Below are positions 33,526-41,684 of a DNA stretch of 64,000 nucleotides, one piece after another. Below the pieces are notes generated by a model that was not told the DNA's origin, searched no databases, and was given only the letters and a program-made list of their open reading frames with translations. How positions within the stretch are numbered: position 1 is the stretch's first letter; the number at the start of each line of letters is the position of its first letter. The translations under genes were made by a program, and so were the position numbers. Source of the DNA: an uncultured delta proteobacterium (GTDB taxonomy: Bacteria; Myxococcota_A; Polyangia; Polyangiales; Polyangiaceae); the NCBI GenBank assembly GCA_903906315.1, contig CAIVJW010000244.1, positions 1 to 64,000 of the forward strand, read 5' to 3'.

Positions 33526-34455
33526 TCAGTCCGACGCCGCCGGCGCGGCCGCCGCGTCCGACTTCACCCACACGAGGCTCGCCTTCTCGCGCAGCGCGCG
33601 ATCGGCGTCCTCGCGCAGCTTTTCCATCCGACTCGTGCGCATCGCGTCCATCACCGGACCCTTGACGCTCTCGAAGGTGACGGACTCGTCGACGCGGCGG
33701 TCGGCGAGCTTGATGATCCACGCGCGCCCCTTCGGCCCGCGCAGGATGCCGCTCGTCTGACCGGGCGCCAGCCCGTCGAGCGCCTGACGCCACGCCTCGG
33801 GGACCTGCGCCCACTTCATCATGCCGAGGTCCCACGGCTTCTGCGACTCCGGCAACCCCGGGAACTGCTTGCGGGCCACCGCCTCGAAGGACGTCTTCTT
33901 GATCTCCTCGAGGTCGCGCAGGAGCCCGGGCTCGTCGTTCATGCGCAGGATCTGGAGCACGTGCTGCTCGGTGCGGATGCGCTTCGCGTTCGCCTCGAAG
34001 TGCGCCTTCGCGTCGGCCTCGGTGACCTCGGCCTTCGCCGCGACCTCGCGCCGAGAGTAGAGCTCGCCGAGCTCGGCGCGCTGGAACGCCATCATCGTCG
34101 CCTCCAGCTGTCGAAGCTTCTGCTGATAGCCGACGTCGGCGTCGAGCCCGAGCGCCAGCGCCTGCTGCCGCACGAGCTCCTGCCGGACGACCGACTCGGC
34201 GGCGTTCTTGCGGTGCAGCGGCTTGCCCTCCGCGCCGTGCATGTCGCCCTTGAGCTTCAGCTTCACGTCGGCGTCCGTGATGGCCACGCCGTTCACCGTC
34301 ACGACGACGTCGTCGCGCGCGGCCTTCGCCGAACCGGGCGGGGCGGGCGCGGCCGTCGCCACGGCGGACGAGGACGGGTCGCGCTTGCCGCACGCGACGA
34401 GGGCGAGCGACGCCGAGAGCACGAAGGGGACGAAGCTGCGGTGGGGCGTATTCAT
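33526..34455 (-). CDS. SurA/parvulin-like peptidyl-prolyl isomerase lipoprotein
   Basis: 309 residues with lipobox ALVAC. A SurA-N-like helical region (VTVNGVAITDADVKLKLK, AAESVVRQELVRQQALALG) is followed by a parvulin-like PPIase segment (EQHVLQILRMND, DLGMMKWAQVP, GQTSGILRGPKGRAWIIKL). It has the layout of PrsA/SurA chaperones that help fold outer-membrane or secreted proteins. Its neighbours are large secreted proteins downstream, but it lies 139 bp from the cytochrome gene and may have its own promoter. Confidence 0.85.
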   Translation of the reverse strand: MNTPHRSFVPFVLSASLALVACGKRDPSSSAVATAAPAPPGSAKAARDDVVVTVNGVAITDADVKLKLKGDMHGAEGKPLHRKNAAESVVRQELVRQQALALGLDADVGYQQKLRQLEATMMAFQRAELGELYSRREVAAKAEVTEADAKAHFEANAKRIRTEQHVLQILRMNDEPGLLRDLEEIKKTSFEAVARKQFPGLPESQKPWDLGMMKWAQVPEAWRQALDGLAPGQTSGILRGPKGRAWIIKLADRRVDESVTFESVKGPVMDAMRTSRMEKLREDADRALREKASLVWVKSDAAAAPAASD

Positions 34456-34594: not shown

Positions 34595-37500
34595 CTAGTT
34601 CGCGGGAGCGTGGCAGGCCGCGCACGCCTCGCGCTCGTCGCCGCTGAACGGGCTGAGCGGCGTCGGGTCGTACGTCATGTCGCGGAAGTGCGCCGTGGCG
34701 GCGTCCGTGTCGTGGCAGCCCATGCACGGCAGACGCGCCGGCTTGGTCTTCCAGGAGCCCGAGGTCGTCGGACCGTGGCAGTTCGCGTCGCAGGTGCGGA
34801 GCTCGGTCGGGTAGGTGATGTCCCAATCACGACCGGGGATGCCGTCCGCGTGCGAGACGGTCACGTTCGGGTAGTGCAGCGTGGCGCCGGCGTGGACGGC
34901 GTGGACGCGCTGCGAGATCGGCACGGCGCCCGGCCAGATGCCGCCGGAGTTCGTCTGCTGCTGGTAGTCGTGGCAGCTGCCGCACGAGTCGACGGCCACG
35001 TTGTTGAAGAGCTTGTTGTGCCGATTGAAGTCGAGCACGAAGCCCTTGGTGTCGGTCGGGTCGGTGTGACACGAGCCGCAGTTGTTGGCCGGGGGCTTCT
35101 CCTCGGTGGCCGTACCGACCTGGAACGCGATCTGTCCGACCGTCGGGGTCTGGAAGTCGATGTCGCTCGTCTTGGTGCCGCGGTCGTTGATCTCAATCTT
35201 CGCGATGTACGTGCCCGGGGCGAGGTCGTCGACCGGATCGAGCGTGTAGGCGATCTCGGTGGCCGTGCGCTTGATCTTGGCGTCGTCGGTCAGCGCGTCG
35301 GTCGGCTTCGCGAGCGTGTTGCTCACGGTCGACGCGGTGCCGAGCGTGTTCGTCGCGCCCGGCGTGTTGCTGCCGAGGACGTGGACGGGGTAGCCGCCGA
35401 GGACGTCGGCCGGGAAGAGCGCGGAGGCGGCGCCGACCGAGCCCGAAGCGACCTGGAGACCGAAGAAGTCGCCCAGGTTGCGGCTGCGAATCGCGACCGA
35501 GCTGGCCACGTTCACGCGGATCGTGGCGCCGATGGCGTGCGCGTAGGCCGCCGGGGCGACCGTGAAGGTGTCGGTCGCGCGGGTGAAGGCCAGGGTCTCC
35601 TCGACCGGCGTGTAGCGGTCCAGGATGACGCTGCCGGCCAGCGGGAACTGCACGCCGTTGCCGGCCTTGACCGTGAACGTCGTGCCGGCGACGGCGACGG
35701 CGCTCGTGGCGCTGTCGGCCGCGGCCGTGCTGTCGAGGTACGCGATCGCGCGGGCCTTGAACGGCGCGTAGTTGTTGAGCCACGCGACGACCTCGGTCGG
35801 CGTCGCCTTGGACACGTCGGCGAACTGCTGGACGCTGTAGACGCTCGTCGCGTCGGCGGCCGCCGCGACGGCCGCGAAGGTCAGCGTGGTCGCCGTGTTA
35901 CCGGTGATCGTCGCGACCTGGCCCAGGCCCGTGCCGCTCAGGACCTTGACCGAGAAGCCCTTCCACTGGTCGACCGTCCACTTCGCCGCGGAGTCGGCGA
36001 GCGTGGTGAGAGAACCGCCCGTGGCCTTGCCCTGCGCGGCGCCGGCAAAGCCGAACGACGCGTAGGTCAGGATGTCGGTGGCCTTGTACGCCCAGACGCC
36101 CGTCACGGTCATCGTCGTGCCGACGTTGTCGACGACGGTGTACGTGGCCGTCGGCTTGCCGCTGGCGCTGTTGTTGGTGACGGTGACGGTGTAGCCGGCG
36201 TACTGGTGGTCGATCCACGTCTTGTTCGCGCCGAGGAACACCTGGTTCGCGTCGGTGAACGTCGTCGTGGTGGCGCCCGCGACCCACGCCGGGGTGAGGG
36301 CGACCTCGCCGCTCGCGCCGGTCGCGTAGACCGGGACCGTGACGGCGGCGGGCACGAGGATCTTGCCGTCGTCGACGAAGAGGTCCTGACCGTTGTCGGC
36401 GATGATGCCGAGGGTCGTCTTGCCCGTCGCGCTCGCCAGGCTGTACGTCATGCCAACCGGGCTCGCGTTCGTGCTCTTGACGACCACGCGCGCCTTCGTC
36501 GTGAGGACGGGGCTGCGGCGCTCGCGCGGACCGGAGACGAAGAAGCTCGACCCGGTGAACTTGCCGTCGCGGGCGACGGTGCAGGCCGTGCCGGCCGCGT
36601 TCGCGACGCAACCCTCGGCGCCGTTGCCGGGCGGGTTCGCGGTCACGCCGTCGTCGACCACCATCGTCGTGTGATCGATGAGCGCCTTGGTGGCGACGTC
36701 GGTCAGCGCGATGTGGACGACCGGGGTCTCGCCCTTGACGAAGAACTTGCCGTTGGCCGCCCCGGTGACGGTCATGGTCGGCTTGAACTCCATGTTCTTG
36801 CGCGGATCCTTGCCGACCCAGTCGTGCGCAGTGACGGGCGACGGCGCGACGCCGTCGTTGTGGCAGTTCACGCAACCGGTGTCGTTCGTGGCCTTGCCGC
36901 CCTTGTGGTTGGCGCCCGTGACCCAGTCGATCGTGTCGTGGCACGAGCCGCAGACGGCGCGCGACGGCGCGTCCTTCCAGTTGTCGACCTGCGCGCCCTT
37001 GCCGTCGTGGCACTTGGTGCAGTTGGCGAGGATGGCCGGGAACTCGGCCTTCCACCACGACACCGGCGAGGCGACGTAGTTGTAGATCGCGTACTTGCCG
37101 TTGTCGGCCGACTCGTCGGCCGCCGTCGCCGGATCGTCGAAGACGATGCCGTCCGCGCCCGGGATGCTCGCGAGCTCGCCGCCGGCGTGGATCTTGTGCG
37201 TCATCACCTTCATGTCGATGGTGTTGCCGCTGTACGCGTCGAAGCTGCCGGCCTGGTGGCAGGTCACGCAGTTCTCGAGACCGATGCGGTCGCCGCCGTG
37301 GCCCGTGACCGACGTGTGGCAGTTGTTGCAGGCCGCGGTCGGGACGATGTCCCGCGTCGCGGGGGCCTGGCCGCCGTTCGGCACGAAGTCGAGGAACGCC
37401 GACGCCGTCGGGCCCGTGTGGCCGCCCAGCATGAGGGCGACGCGGTGGAGCAGCGCGCGGTCGTAGGTGATCGCCGTCTTGGCGACGGGCGTCGTGATGG

Positions 37501-38248
37501 CCGAGATGTTCGTGCTGAAGACGTACGTGTACGTGCCGTCGCCGTGATCCGTCGAGACGCCGTTGTTCTCGCGGTACGCCTGGTCCACCGAGTAGCCGTC
37601 GGGCTTCGGGAAGCCGGCGCCCTTCACGGTCTTCGTGCGGTAGACGTACGACGTCCAGTTGCCGTACGCCTCGCCGGCGTTCGGGGCCGCGAGCTTCGAG
37701 ATGTTGAAGTACTCGCCGGTGACGCCGGTGACGGGCTTGCCGTCCTTCGTCATGACCTTGAACTCGACGGTCACGAGGCCCGTGTCGTCGGCGGTCACGG
37801 CCGTGATGGTCGCGTCGACCATGTACTTGCCAGCCGCGAGGTCCATCGCCTCGAGCGCGGCGAGGCCGTGCCGATCGCCGACGAGGATGGCGAGGCCGTC
37901 CTTGCCGGGCTCGCCCGGCGAGCCCGCGTCGCCATTCAGCCCGGGCGCGCCCGCGTCGCCGTCGAGGCCGTTGGCGCCGTCGGCACCGTCTGCACCCTTG
38001 GCGCCGTCGGCACCGTCTGCACCCTTGGCGCCGTCGGCGCCGGCCTTGCCGTCAGCACCCTTGTCGCCGTTTGCGCCCGTCGCGCCGTCGGTGCCGTCGG
38101 CACCCTTGACGCCGTCCTTGCCCGACGTGCCCGCAGGCCCGGCCGAGCCCTGGGGGCCGGTCGCGCCATCCGCGCCGCTGCACCCGACCGCGAAGAGAAT
38201 CGCAGCCATTCCTGCGGTCCCCCAGACCATGCTGTACCTGAACGCCAT
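34595..38248 (-). CDS. OmcA/MtrC-like decaheme cytochrome c with collagen-like stalk
   Basis: 1217 residues with SD GGAGGTG before the ATG at 38248. A lipobox FAVGC (Cys23) is followed by 31 uninterrupted Gly-X-Y triplets (residues 25-117). Heme motifs: five CxxCH from about residue 307 to 463 (CNNCH, CVTCH, CTKCH, CGSCH, CVNCH), then about 590 residues of beta-rich insert, then five more from about 1057 to the C-terminus (CGSCH, CGSCH, CDANCH with CX3CH, CMGCH, CAACH). Two pentaheme clusters flanking a beta region match the OmcA/MtrC family of outer-surface electron-transfer cytochromes. The stalk should hold the hemes away from the membrane. No MtrA/MtrB partners are in this window, so the electron route is unproven. 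Confidence 0.88.
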   Translation of the reverse strand: MAFRYSMVWGTAGMAAILFAVGCSGADGATGPQGSAGPAGTSGKDGVKGADGTDGATGANGDKGADGKAGADGAKGADGADGAKGADGADGANGLDGDAGAPGLNGDAGSPGEPGKDGLAILVGDRHGLAALEAMDLAAGKYMVDATITAVTADDTGLVTVEFKVMTKDGKPVTGVTGEYFNISKLAAPNAGEAYGNWTSYVYRTKTVKGAGFPKPDGYSVDQAYRENNGVSTDHGDGTYTYVFSTNISAITTPVAKTAITYDRALLHRVALMLGGHTGPTASAFLDFVPNGGQAPATRDIVPTAACNNCHTSVTGHGGDRIGLENCVTCHQAGSFDAYSGNTIDMKVMTHKIHAGGELASIPGADGIVFDDPATAADESADNGKYAIYNYVASPVSWWKAEFPAILANCTKCHDGKGAQVDNWKDAPSRAVCGSCHDTIDWVTGANHKGGKATNDTGCVNCHNDGVAPSPVTAHDWVGKDPRKNMEFKPTMTVTGAANGKFFVKGETPVVHIALTDVATKALIDHTTMVVDDGVTANPPGNGAEGCVANAAGTACTVARDGKFTGSSFFVSGPRERRSPVLTTKARVVVKSTNASPVGMTYSLASATGKTTLGIIADNGQDLFVDDGKILVPAAVTVPVYATGASGEVALTPAWVAGATTTTFTDANQVFLGANKTWIDHQYAGYTVTVTNNSASGKPTATYTVVDNVGTTMTVTGVWAYKATDILTYASFGFAGAAQGKATGGSLTTLADSAAKWTVDQWKGFSVKVLSGTGLGQVATITGNTATTLTFAAVAAAADATSVYSVQQFADVSKATPTEVVAWLNNYAPFKARAIAYLDSTAAADSATSAVAVAGTTFTVKAGNGVQFPLAGSVILDRYTPVEETLAFTRATDTFTVAPAAYAHAIGATIRVNVASSVAIRSRNLGDFFGLQVASGSVGAASALFPADVLGGYPVHVLGSNTPGATNTLGTASTVSNTLAKPTDALTDDAKIKRTATEIAYTLDPVDDLAPGTYIAKIEINDRGTKTSDIDFQTPTVGQIAFQVGTATEEKPPANNCGSCHTDPTDTKGFVLDFNRHNKLFNNVAVDSCGSCHDYQQQTNSGGIWPGAVPISQRVHAVHAGATLHYPNVTVSHADGIPGRDWDITYPTELRTCDANCHGPTTSGSWKTKPARLPCMGCHDTDAATAHFRDMTYDPTPLSPFSGDEREACAACHAPAN
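37979..38032 (-). repeat. 27-bp tandem coding repeat, two copies
   Basis: Two near-identical 27-bp units encode GAKGADGAD twice (residues 73-90) within the collagen-like stalk. Slippage here would change stalk length in steps of nine residues. Confidence 0.75.
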
Positions 38249-38520: not shown

Positions 38521-41412
38521 TCAGCGGCCGCGGCGGCGAGCGAGGGCGATCGCCGCGAGGGCGATCGCGAAGGCGCCGAGGCCGGGGCGGTCCCCGTCAC
38601 CTCGGGCACGGACGGCGCAGCCGCCGGACTCGTCGCTCGTCGGCGCGGGGGCGGCGGCCGCCTTCGCGACGCACGCGCCCTCCTTGCAGGAGCCGCCGGA
38701 GCAGTCCGCGTCCGACGAGCACGTGCCCGCGGGCGCCCCGCAGACCTTCGCCGCGGCGTCGCAGACCGTCCCGCGGCACTGGTCGTCGCTCGCGCACGGG
38801 CCGTCGCCCGCCGCGAGGCCGCACACGTCGTCCTTGGCGTCGCAGCGGCCAGACGCGCAGACGCGCGCGCCGACCTCGTCCGTGCACTTCGCGACGCCGG
38901 CGGGCGCGCCGGGCAGGGGCTTGCCGTTCGCGACCTTGGCCGTGCAGGCGCCGGGCCTTCCGGCCGTTCCATCGCACCACTCGGTGCCCTTGCACGCCGC
39001 ATCGACCGTGCAGCCCGCGACGCACGCGCCGCTCGCGGCGTCGCACGCCGGGCCGCCCGCGTGGCCCTCGCAGTCGGCGTCCTTCGCGCACGCGCCGCAG
39101 CGGCCACCGTCGCAGAGCGGGGCCTCCGCCTTGGGACACGCGAGCTTCGCGCCGCTGCCGTGATCGCCATCGCAGGCCGCGCAGGAGGACATCGCCGCGT
39201 CGCAGACCGGCTTCGACCCCTCACACGCCACCGCGCTCTCGGCCGTGCACTCGACGCAGGCGTGCGAGGCCGGATCGCACACGGCCAGCGGCGCCTTGCA
39301 GTCCGCGTCCTTCGTGCAGCCCGCGCCGCACAGCTCGTTCGTGCACTGGCTCGAGCGGCAGACCGTCGCCGCGTCGGCGGGGGAGCAGGGCCCGTGGCCG
39401 TCCGCGAGACCGCACTGGTCGTCCTTCGGGTCGCAGACGGCCGACGCGCAGACGAGCGCGGCCGCCTCGGCGGAGCACGTGCCGTCGAGCGTGGGCTTGC
39501 CGTGCGCAGGGTCGCTCGGCATCGGCTGGCCGTTCGCGAGCGCGTCGCGACACTCGTGCGTCGACGGCGCGCACCACTGGCCGCCGAGGCAGTCGACGTC
39601 GATGTTGCAGCCGCCCTTCACGGTGCACGTGCCGTTGTGGCTGCACTGGCCCGAGCGGCAGATCGCGGCCTCGGCCTGCGTGCACGGCCCGTCGCCGTCC
39701 GCGAGGCCGCACTTGTCGTCGACGGGGTCGCAGGCGCCGGAGGCGCAGACGGCCTTGCCCACCTCGAACGAGCACGTGCCGTCGAGCTTTGGGATCGCAT
39801 GCGATGGGTCGTTCGGAATCGGGGCGCCGTTCGCGAGCTTCGGCGCGCAGAGGCTCACCGAGGTGTCGCAGTAGTCGTTCGCGCCGCAGTCCGAGTCGAA
39901 GTTGCAGCCGCCGAGAGGCAAGCACACGCCCTTCACGCTGCACGCGCCCGTACGGCACACCACCGAGCCGTTCGCCTGCGTGCACGGACCGTCGCCGGCC
40001 GCGAGGCCGCAGAGGGCGTCCTTCGGGTCGCAGGCGCCGCTCGCGCAGACGAGCGCGGCCGCCTCGGGGGTGCAGGTGCCGTCGAGCGCCGGCTTGGCGT
40101 GCGCGGGGTCGCTCGGCAGCGGCGATCCGTTGGCGATCGTGGGCTTGCAGGTGTTCGTCGAGATGCTGCACCAGCTGCCTGCGGCGCAGTCGCCGTCGAC
40201 GTTGCAGGTGCCCTTCGCGAGGCACGTGCCACCGACGCTGCACGCGCCGCTCCGGCAGACGAGCAGCGCGTTCTGCTGCGTGCACGGGCCGTCACCGAGG
40301 GCGAGGCCGCAATGGTCGTCCTTCGGGTCGCACACGCCGCTCTGGCAGACGAGCGCCGCGGCGGCGGCGTTGCACGTGCCGTCCAGCGTCGGCTTCACGT
40401 GGCCGGCGTCCTTGGGCATGGCGCCGCCGTTCGCGACCTTCGCCGTGCACGTGTGCGCGCCGATGTCGCAGAAGCCCGCCGCGCAGTCGCCGTCGGCGTT
40501 GCAGCCGGCGGCCGGCATGCACGTGCCGTCGACGCTGCAGGTCTTGGAGCGGCACACGAGCGGCCCGTTCGCGTTCGTGCAGGGCCCGCCGTCGTTGGCA
40601 TAGCCGCAGAGGTCGTCCTTCACGTCGCAGACGCCCGACTGGCAGGTGGCGGCGGCGGAGTCGGGCGTGCACTTGCCGGCGAGCACGGGCACGTGGCCCG
40701 CGACCGAAGGGATCGGCTTGCCGTTCTCGAGCTTGCCGGCGCACGTCGCGGCAACGTTGTCGCAGTAGTTGCCGAGCTGACAGTGCGCGTCGGAGCTGCA
40801 GCCGCTCGCCGTGCCGGCGAGCTCGGCGAGGTGCGCGCCGGTGTTGCCCGAGGTGTTCGTGACCTGGACGGCGAGGGTGTTGATGCCCATCGCGAAGGGG
40901 CCGCCGACGGGGACGGTGAACGACAAGAGGCTCGCCCAGGCGTTCGCGCCGTCATCCTTCGCGACCTGAACGCCGTTCAGCAGCACGAGGCAGGTGTCGT
41001 CGCAGGCGACCTTGCCGGTCAGCGTCGCGGTGGCCGGGTCCATTCCGTAGAGCGAGAAGGTCGTCGAGTAGGTGTACTTGGCGCCGTTCGCGCCCTTGGT
41101 ATTCACCTGAGCGCTCAGCCATTTCGACGTCGCGGGGTTCGCGACCCAGCCGGCGGCGGCCGCGACGGCGTACGTCTTCGGACCCGGCAGCGCCGCGTCC
41201 GTGCTCGTCAGCGTGTAGTGCGCGTCGACCGTCGCGTTGGGGAGAAGCGCCCCCTTGTCGTCGACCCCCGTCGGGAAGACGCCGGCGATCTTCAGCGCGC
41301 TCGCGGCCTCGCCGAGTGGCTCGTCGGCGGGCCCTTCGCGAGGTGTGGGCGCACACGCGGGGATCGCGAGGGCCACGAAGAGCGCGAGGTGGGGGCGGTG
41401 AGAAGAAGCCAT
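38521..41412 (-). CDS. Cys-rich repeat surface protein with MYXO-CTERM-like tail
   Basis: 963 residues. The lipoprotein-type signal ends at AIPAC. A jelly-roll-like N-terminal region of about 200 residues (DTCLVLLNGVQVAKDDG) follows. Then come about six Cys-rich units of roughly 70 residues with pattern C-AAALVCASG-CDPKD-CGL-GDGPCTQ-VCRSG-CS-GTC, each ending in KPTLDGTC-like text. The last 36 residues are Ser-Gly-Gly-Cys, a hydrophobic helix (LGAFAIALAAIALA) and RRRGR, the layout of the MYXO-CTERM sorting tail. The protein would be processed by a myxosortase-type protease and displayed on the outer surface. The target is unknown. Confidence 0.85.
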   Translation of the reverse strand: MASSHRPHLALFVALAIPACAPTPREGPADEPLGEAASALKIAGVFPTGVDDKGALLPNATVDAHYTLTSTDAALPGPKTYAVAAAAGWVANPATSKWLSAQVNTKGANGAKYTYSTTFSLYGMDPATATLTGKVACDDTCLVLLNGVQVAKDDGANAWASLLSFTVPVGGPFAMGINTLAVQVTNTSGNTGAHLAELAGTASGCSSDAHCQLGNYCDNVAATCAGKLENGKPIPSVAGHVPVLAGKCTPDSAAATCQSGVCDVKDDLCGYANDGGPCTNANGPLVCRSKTCSVDGTCMPAAGCNADGDCAAGFCDIGAHTCTAKVANGGAMPKDAGHVKPTLDGTCNAAAAALVCQSGVCDPKDDHCGLALGDGPCTQQNALLVCRSGACSVGGTCLAKGTCNVDGDCAAGSWCSISTNTCKPTIANGSPLPSDPAHAKPALDGTCTPEAAALVCASGACDPKDALCGLAAGDGPCTQANGSVVCRTGACSVKGVCLPLGGCNFDSDCGANDYCDTSVSLCAPKLANGAPIPNDPSHAIPKLDGTCSFEVGKAVCASGACDPVDDKCGLADGDGPCTQAEAAICRSGQCSHNGTCTVKGGCNIDVDCLGGQWCAPSTHECRDALANGQPMPSDPAHGKPTLDGTCSAEAAALVCASAVCDPKDDQCGLADGHGPCSPADAATVCRSSQCTNELCGAGCTKDADCKAPLAVCDPASHACVECTAESAVACEGSKPVCDAAMSSCAACDGDHGSGAKLACPKAEAPLCDGGRCGACAKDADCEGHAGGPACDAASGACVAGCTVDAACKGTEWCDGTAGRPGACTAKVANGKPLPGAPAGVAKCTDEVGARVCASGRCDAKDDVCGLAAGDGPCASDDQCRGTVCDAAAKVCGAPAGTCSSDADCSGGSCKEGACVAKAAAAPAPTSDESGGCAVRARGDGDRPGLGAFAIALAAIALARRRGR

Positions 41413-41684
41413 CGGGGCTCTGCGCTTCCGTGAGGGGTGGTGGGGCCGCGGGTCCGGGACGAACCCGCCGGGCGCCGCGCGGTCGACGCGCGGGGCGGCT
41501 GCTAGGAGCGAGCCCACGAGCCTAGCAAAAACCTCGGCGCCATGCGGTCCGAGGGCGGACCGCCGACGCCGTGGGCGCCCGCTGTCGACGCGGGGACGGC
41601 CGGCGCGGTGCGAAGCCGGGACGGAGGAGCCCGTCGCCTGCGACGCGGGAGCGCTCCGCCCAGCTCGGCCGACCGCGCTCGCGG

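Follow-up and report, generated by a model that had tools for sequence, protein, structure and literature searches.

The closest described systems are the Shewanella cytochromes MtrC, MtrF, OmcA and UndA (compared here through PDB entries 4LM8, 3PMQ, 4LMH, 3UCP and 6R2Q), which share with the protein of this study a lipid anchor, a domain I, two pentaheme domains and the order of the hemes. Each MtrCAB complex contains one MtrC chain, as in 6R2Q. Unbroken Gly-X-Y repeats on a surface protein are in turn found in the bacterial collagen-like proteins Scl1/Scl2, Lcl and BclA (PF01391). Geobacter PgcA is likewise a lipid-anchored multiheme cytochrome of the cell surface with long, repetitive heme-free segments, its PTx repeats (PMC5732950), but it is an unrelated triheme protein whose repeats lie between the hemes and are not Gly-X-Y. 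A prolyl isomerase that accompanies extracellular multiheme cytochromes has been named for the OmcZ-type nanowire cytochromes (PMC11208441), which belong to a different cytochrome family. The distance between a cytochrome and its membrane decides what that cytochrome can do in extracellular electron transfer.

The window analysed is a stretch of 64,000 nucleotides (contig CAIVJW010000244.1, assembly GCA_903906315.1) from the 8.8 Mb draft genome of an uncultured delta proteobacterium. Its decaheme cytochrome gene occupies a minus-strand frame that runs from an ATG at 38248 to a stop at 34595, with an AGGTGA site just upstream of the ATG. Along the protein the order is lipobox, Cys23, Ser24, Gly-X-Y tract and OmcA/MtrC-family head (Table 1), and with lipobox and cysteine in place the product is predicted to be an outer-membrane lipoprotein, which may be exposed at the cell surface. 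It differs from the Shewanella proteins in having 32 Gly-X-Y triplets, where MtrC and MtrF have five after the lipid-bearing cysteine, a heme-free middle region with some three times the length seen in ordinary family members, one CX3CH site, a parvulin gene next door and no detected MtrB porin gene. It differs from Scl1/Scl2, Lcl and BclA in its multiheme head, its outer-membrane lipid anchor and its proline-poor tract.

Table 1. Features of the cytochrome gene and its downstream neighbour, in window coordinates
Feature	Residues	Position	Strand	Basis
CDS, decaheme cytochrome with predicted lipid anchor	1217 aa + stop	34595..38248	minus	
Signal peptide, lipobox AVG at its end	1-22	38183..38248	minus	lipobox by motif only
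Cys23, predicted lipid-modified residue	23	38180..38182	minus	lipobox AVG-C
Collagen-like tract, 32 Gly-X-Y triplets	25-120	37889..38176	minus	sequence, PF01391
Domain I, OmcA-like N-terminal beta domain	148-294	37367..37807	minus	PF22112, AlphaFold2, Foldseek
Heme domain II, hemes 1-5	299-468	36845..37354	minus	PF22113, alignment A1
Heme-free middle region (domain III equivalent)	469-1050	35099..36844	minus	alignment A1
Window-specific insertion 1	622-808	35825..36385	minus	A1 columns filled by the window row alone
Window-specific insertion 2	840-916	35501..35731	minus	A1 columns filled by the window row alone
Heme domain IV, hemes 6-10	1051-1217	34598..35098	minus	heme motifs, Pfam, alignment A1
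Heme 8 site CX3CH (CDANCH)	1153	34775..34792	minus	sequence, alignment A1
PrsA/SurA-like peptidyl-prolyl isomerase lipoprotein	309 aa	33526..34455	minus	PF13145

By every testable feature the protein is a member of the OmcA/MtrC family. It scores 268 bits against TIGR03507 (NCBIfam 'OmcA/MtrC family decaheme c-type cytochrome', cut-off 209.3), 104.3 bits against Pfam Mtrc-MtrF_II-IV (PF22113, cut-off 30) and 33.8 bits against OmcA-like_N (PF22112, cut-off 27). The ten predicted heme motifs, nine CXXCH and one CX3CH, fall into two groups of five (aa 307-459 and 1057-1209). In alignment A1, which comprises the window head and 17 relatives, the heme sites of both pentaheme domains align, and the ten sites, together with nine other invariant histidines, recur across 18 relatives. 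As a profile, A1 finds MtrF (3PMQ) in the PDB at 2.7e-77, and also UndA, OmcA and MtrC. An AlphaFold2 model of the head, made with the same 17 relatives, had a mean pLDDT of 47, was reliable in domain I alone and informed neither on the middle region nor on oligomers; the 16 significant Foldseek matches to the model were all OmcA, MtrC, MtrF or UndA. The initial annotation had placed a lipid-anchored OmcA/MtrC-like decaheme protein with one CX3CH site at 34595-38248, which is exactly the CDS, and it was right on the anchor (by the AVG-C motif with Cys23), the family (all three profiles above cut-off) and the heme site (CDANCH at heme 8).

The same annotation saw 31 Gly-X-Y triplets directly behind the lipid anchor. 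The position is correct, while the count is 32, from Gly25 to Ala120 without a break and straight after Ser24 (an automatic count gave 33, since it included Gly22-Cys-Ser, which spans the cleavage site). The tract is collagen-like by Pfam (PF01391, 54.4 bits against a cut-off of 27.2), and it matches collagen chains in the PDB and the collagen-like regions of Scl1/Scl2/Lcl in NCBIfam. Proline occupies 5 of the 64 X and Y positions, 12 of the Y positions are Asp, the net charge is -9, and a search for K/R-G-D/E pairs in the tract gave none. A rough triple-helix propensity score, of use for ranking alone, puts the predicted stability of the tract third lowest of seven (30.7, compared with 36.2 for a stretch of type I collagen). 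The underlying DNA contains tandem units of 9-45 bases, in multiples of 9.

Among the lipid-anchored family members of myxobacteria, such tracts turned out to be the norm and near-universal. A survey of homologues, the check which the initial annotation had proposed, found Gly-X-Y behind the lipobox at 28 of the 29 myxococcotal loci that could be assessed (a number of them labelled Deltaproteobacteria or Proteobacteria), the rule in this phylum, and at none of 36 acidobacteriotal homologues, 35 of which also have no recognisable lipobox; these locus counts are not independent, as related species share history. The scan of named genomes was seeded with two heme-region patterns, and Gly-X-Y played no part in the selection of loci. 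A raw search for a glycine codon at every ninth base was swamped by glycine-rich repeats. A member of the family is also present in a cultured species, Minicystis rosea DSM 24000. Lipobox and tract also occur together in two of three Chloroflexota, and likewise in a few unplaced genomes. Lipid anchor and Gly-X-Y are tightly linked. Within the organism's own taxonomic family, the tract stands behind the lipobox in almost every complete TIGR03507 member, mostly with 5-27 triplets, and the arrangement recurs throughout class and phylum with single runs of up to 48. Unbroken runs of 22-48 triplets recur, but the total among relatives varies from 4 to 52 triplets, which means that no constant distance is maintained. 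Many relatives intersperse Gly-X-Y with a module of about 30 residues that contains two cysteines and matches PF19079 ('Collagen-flanked surface repeat') below threshold, or with another repeat; the tract of the window protein is pure Gly-X-Y. A literature search found no description of a collagen-like tract on multiheme cytochromes, a weak absence as most subscription journals lay outside its coverage. The family is thus a known one, and the new part is a phylum-wide collagen-like trait of which we found no description in the searchable papers.

In the window's own genome, five of the six real collagen loci encode lipoproteins that are, or apparently are, multiheme cytochromes: the window gene, the N-terminal fragments of two paralogues, each with 30 triplets and each at the end of a contig, an octaheme protein (15 triplets) and another multiheme protein (10 triplets). 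The residues with which the two fragments end recur at the start of two decaheme genes that are truncated, and these pieces probably belong together. A tract specific to cytochromes, which would describe this genome, does not hold in its relatives, where lipobox and Gly-X-Y also head other, unrelated lipoproteins. The combination is therefore a general stalk of surface lipoproteins rather than one reserved for cytochromes, and these cytochromes use it almost always. Its generic nature is one argument for a stalk that is adhesive, the tract binding other tracts, polysaccharide or mineral and so retaining the cytochromes in a matrix, with distance being secondary. The closest profile matches of the tract are indeed collagen-like regions of adhesins, and a role in localisation has been discussed for the repeats of lipid-anchored PgcA (PMC5732950). 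Against this, the X and Y positions diverge quickly and neither a conserved X/Y motif nor a binding partner is known, and we regard an adhesive stalk as improbable.

The pattern of substitution bears on whether the repeat has any function. In eight pairs of aligned tracts, both paralogues of the window genome among them, glycine codons show 0 amino-acid changes and 66 silent ones while X/Y codons show 109 and 44, figures into which some bias is built because pairs were chosen for recognised tracts on both sides and some sequences were reused. The glycine period is, on this comparison, evidently under selection. A GC-rich genome (GC content 73%) and a tract made of tandem DNA units might point to low-complexity repeat growth without function, but this explanation is largely refuted and we give it almost no weight: besides the selection on glycine codons, the tract is retained across the phylum and absent from the acidobacteriotal homologues, and its position is fixed just behind the lipobox. 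The tract is more than a product of chance: all 32 glycines keep the register, homologues have such tracts too, and glycine is not replaced in the aligned pairs. Fixed glycines with free X and Y positions fit the demand of a triple helix, whereas a disordered linker needs no such period.

Of the explanations considered, we favour a lipid-anchored OmcA/MtrC decaheme head that is held off the outer membrane by a collagen-like stalk, with a probability of about 0.55. This builds on the architecture and family of the protein, the near-universal stalk of the phylum's lipid-anchored members, the selection on glycine and the conserved isomerase neighbour, all of which are observed. Beyond them, the tract would fold as a triple helix, with three chains sharing a stalk of up to ~27 nm (96 residues at 0.286 nm each, if triple-helical), and the cytochrome, tethered in this way, would be a terminal carrier of electrons able to reach across the polysaccharide coat of the cell. 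In its fullest form, the idea is that Myxococcota possess trimeric 30-heme carriers, with three heads on one triple helix tens of nm long, a dedicated isomerase and no MtrAB; we consider this combination rather doubtful.

One reason for doubt comes from Shewanella. MtrC of S. oneidensis (7QTH), MtrF (3PMQ) and the S. baltica homologue (6R2Q) begin Cys-Gly-Gly-Ser-Asp-Gly, with five triplets after the lipid-bearing cysteine (the N-terminal query sequence was fully matched by the deposited chains). Since MtrC is single-copy in MtrCAB, Gly-X-Y as such is no proof of a trimer, and the tract of the window protein is a long form of an element that exists in a monomeric prototype. The Gly-X-Y stalk is real as a sequence feature, but a trimer with 30 hemes is unproven. 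A monomeric spacer, where Gly-X-Y is a flexible or extended, polyproline-II-like tether, enlarged from the short one of Shewanella MtrC and MtrF, and a single head sweeps round its anchor without trimerisation, is an alternative that we think unlikely though far from negligible. It would suit a tract that is poor in proline, strongly negative and low in stability rank, and that is broken by other modules in many relatives, and a flexible tether would sidestep the gap in electron supply discussed below. What speaks against such a spacer is that glycine stays unreplaced while X and Y change freely, when a disordered linker has no need of glycine at every third residue, and that long unbroken runs recur.

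The initial annotation saw the appeal of the stalk in lifting hemes away from the membrane, for contact with minerals or other cells. There is a gap in this argument, as a heme-free stalk parts the head from its donor as much as it moves it towards minerals: ~27 nm is far beyond electron tunnelling, so a rigid stalk would sever the head from a membrane conduit. Searches for an MtrB/PioB porin (PF11854) found none in this genome or in 37 others with such cytochromes, 38 in all, these being drafts and the search covering the MtrB type only. For the MtrA-type decaheme protein (TIGR03508), the own genome gave weak matches alone, the best at 27.6 bits against 192.2. Other cytochromes outside the cell, shuttles or a leaning tether might deliver the electrons. 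As the stalk is without hemes, we suspect that the head takes them up from other carriers, extracellular or in the outer membrane, and does not sit docked on an MtrAB conduit (the MtrCAB complex has been described in PMC12304082).

If the stalked reading is true, the collagen-like stalk would represent a general spacing device for extracellular electron transfer, and the five triplets of MtrC and MtrF would be recast as a short form of the same element. Myxococcota, little studied in this respect, would emerge as carriers of many such proteins. It also raises the puzzle of how electrons pass a heme-free stalk in genomes where MtrB is not detectable.

The middle region of the head is about 260 residues longer than in the nearest relatives (A1), and a Pfam search of its two insertions gave no match. 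Hemes 5 and 6 are 598 residues apart, compared with about 300-420 in a subfamily defined by long spacing and about 165-190 in ordinary members. In the tree, the core of this subfamily forms a clade supported at 100/100. Immediately downstream of the window cytochrome gene lies the gene of a lipoprotein with a parvulin-type prolyl isomerase domain, a partner absent from the initial annotation, and such an isomerase is found directly downstream on the same strand at 24 of 31 subfamily loci but at only 2 of 70 loci of other myxococcotal members. Collagen folding as its main task was rejected, since isomerase-linked tracts are proline-poor (median X/Y proline fraction 0.075, compared with 0.222 in the others), so that it is probably not there for collagen. 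We infer that its client is not the stalk but the large heme head, whose folding or export it may aid. An upstream gene of 998 aa was also considered as a partner and rejected, as no homologue occurs near related cytochromes.

At heme 8, the CDANCH of the window protein is one residue longer than the CXXCH that most homologues have in this position. CX3CH occurs there also in two relatives (L131 and L133), and the three proteins belong to three separate parts of the tree, with tree neighbours that have CXXCH. This distribution leads us to propose a repeated insertion of one residue, and suggests that heme 8 may be a single tolerant site. Surveys of cytochromes already count CX3CH as a heme motif (PMC10734462), and in a few other members of the family a CX3CH or CX4CH motif is found at hemes other than the eighth.

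A gene for a PrsA/SurA-like prolyl isomerase lipoprotein is conserved directly downstream of the cytochrome gene at 24 of the 31 loci of the long-spacing OmcA/MtrC subfamily, an observation that covers the window gene and the surveyed loci L051-L058, L127-L134 and L169-L184. Heme 8 is of the CX3CH type in three scattered members of this subfamily (the window protein, L131 and L133), and it appears that a single residue was inserted there independently in each of them.

Features of the cytochrome gene and its neighbours in the window
Feature	Position	Strand	Remark
PrsA/SurA-like prolyl isomerase lipoprotein gene	33526-34455	-	kept downstream of cytochrome gene
CX3CH at heme 8	34775-34792		
Two insertions in middle region	35501-35731 and 35825-36385		found in window protein alone
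Cys-rich 998-aa protein gene	38521-41517	-	300-bp tandem repeats; MYXO-CTERM-like tail

Both insertions in the heme-free middle region hold repeat-like segments, such as WTVDQWKGFSVKVLSGTGLGQVATITGNTATTLTF, and neither has a Pfam match. For the 998-aa protein there were no NCBIfam or Pfam matches, and no homologue was found near related cytochromes.

The canonical Shewanella proteins MtrC and MtrF start with the lipid Cys and five Gly-X-Y triplets (PDB chains 7QTH, 3PMQ and 6R2Q), which is a short form of the stalk. At L126-L135 and L165-L184, collagen tracts are interleaved with one of two module types, either the two-cysteine SCTVxDNGDGTKTITCxDGTxVTV, with a weak match to PF19079, or ANCxNGGTKVEVGxDANGNG. 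An OmcA/MtrC protein with 19 triplets (L221) is encoded on a contig labelled Nitrososphaerota archaeon, which is possibly mis-binned.

Within the window's own draft genome, highly similar decaheme genes, split at contig ends, are found on contigs C2, C129 and C280 (L059, L060, L063 and L064); their stalks have 30 triplets, and this genome is likely to have at least two stalked decahemes besides the one in the window. Other cytochrome types also carry stalks there, namely an octaheme with 15 triplets (C159, L066) and a multiheme with 10 triplets (C94, L067).
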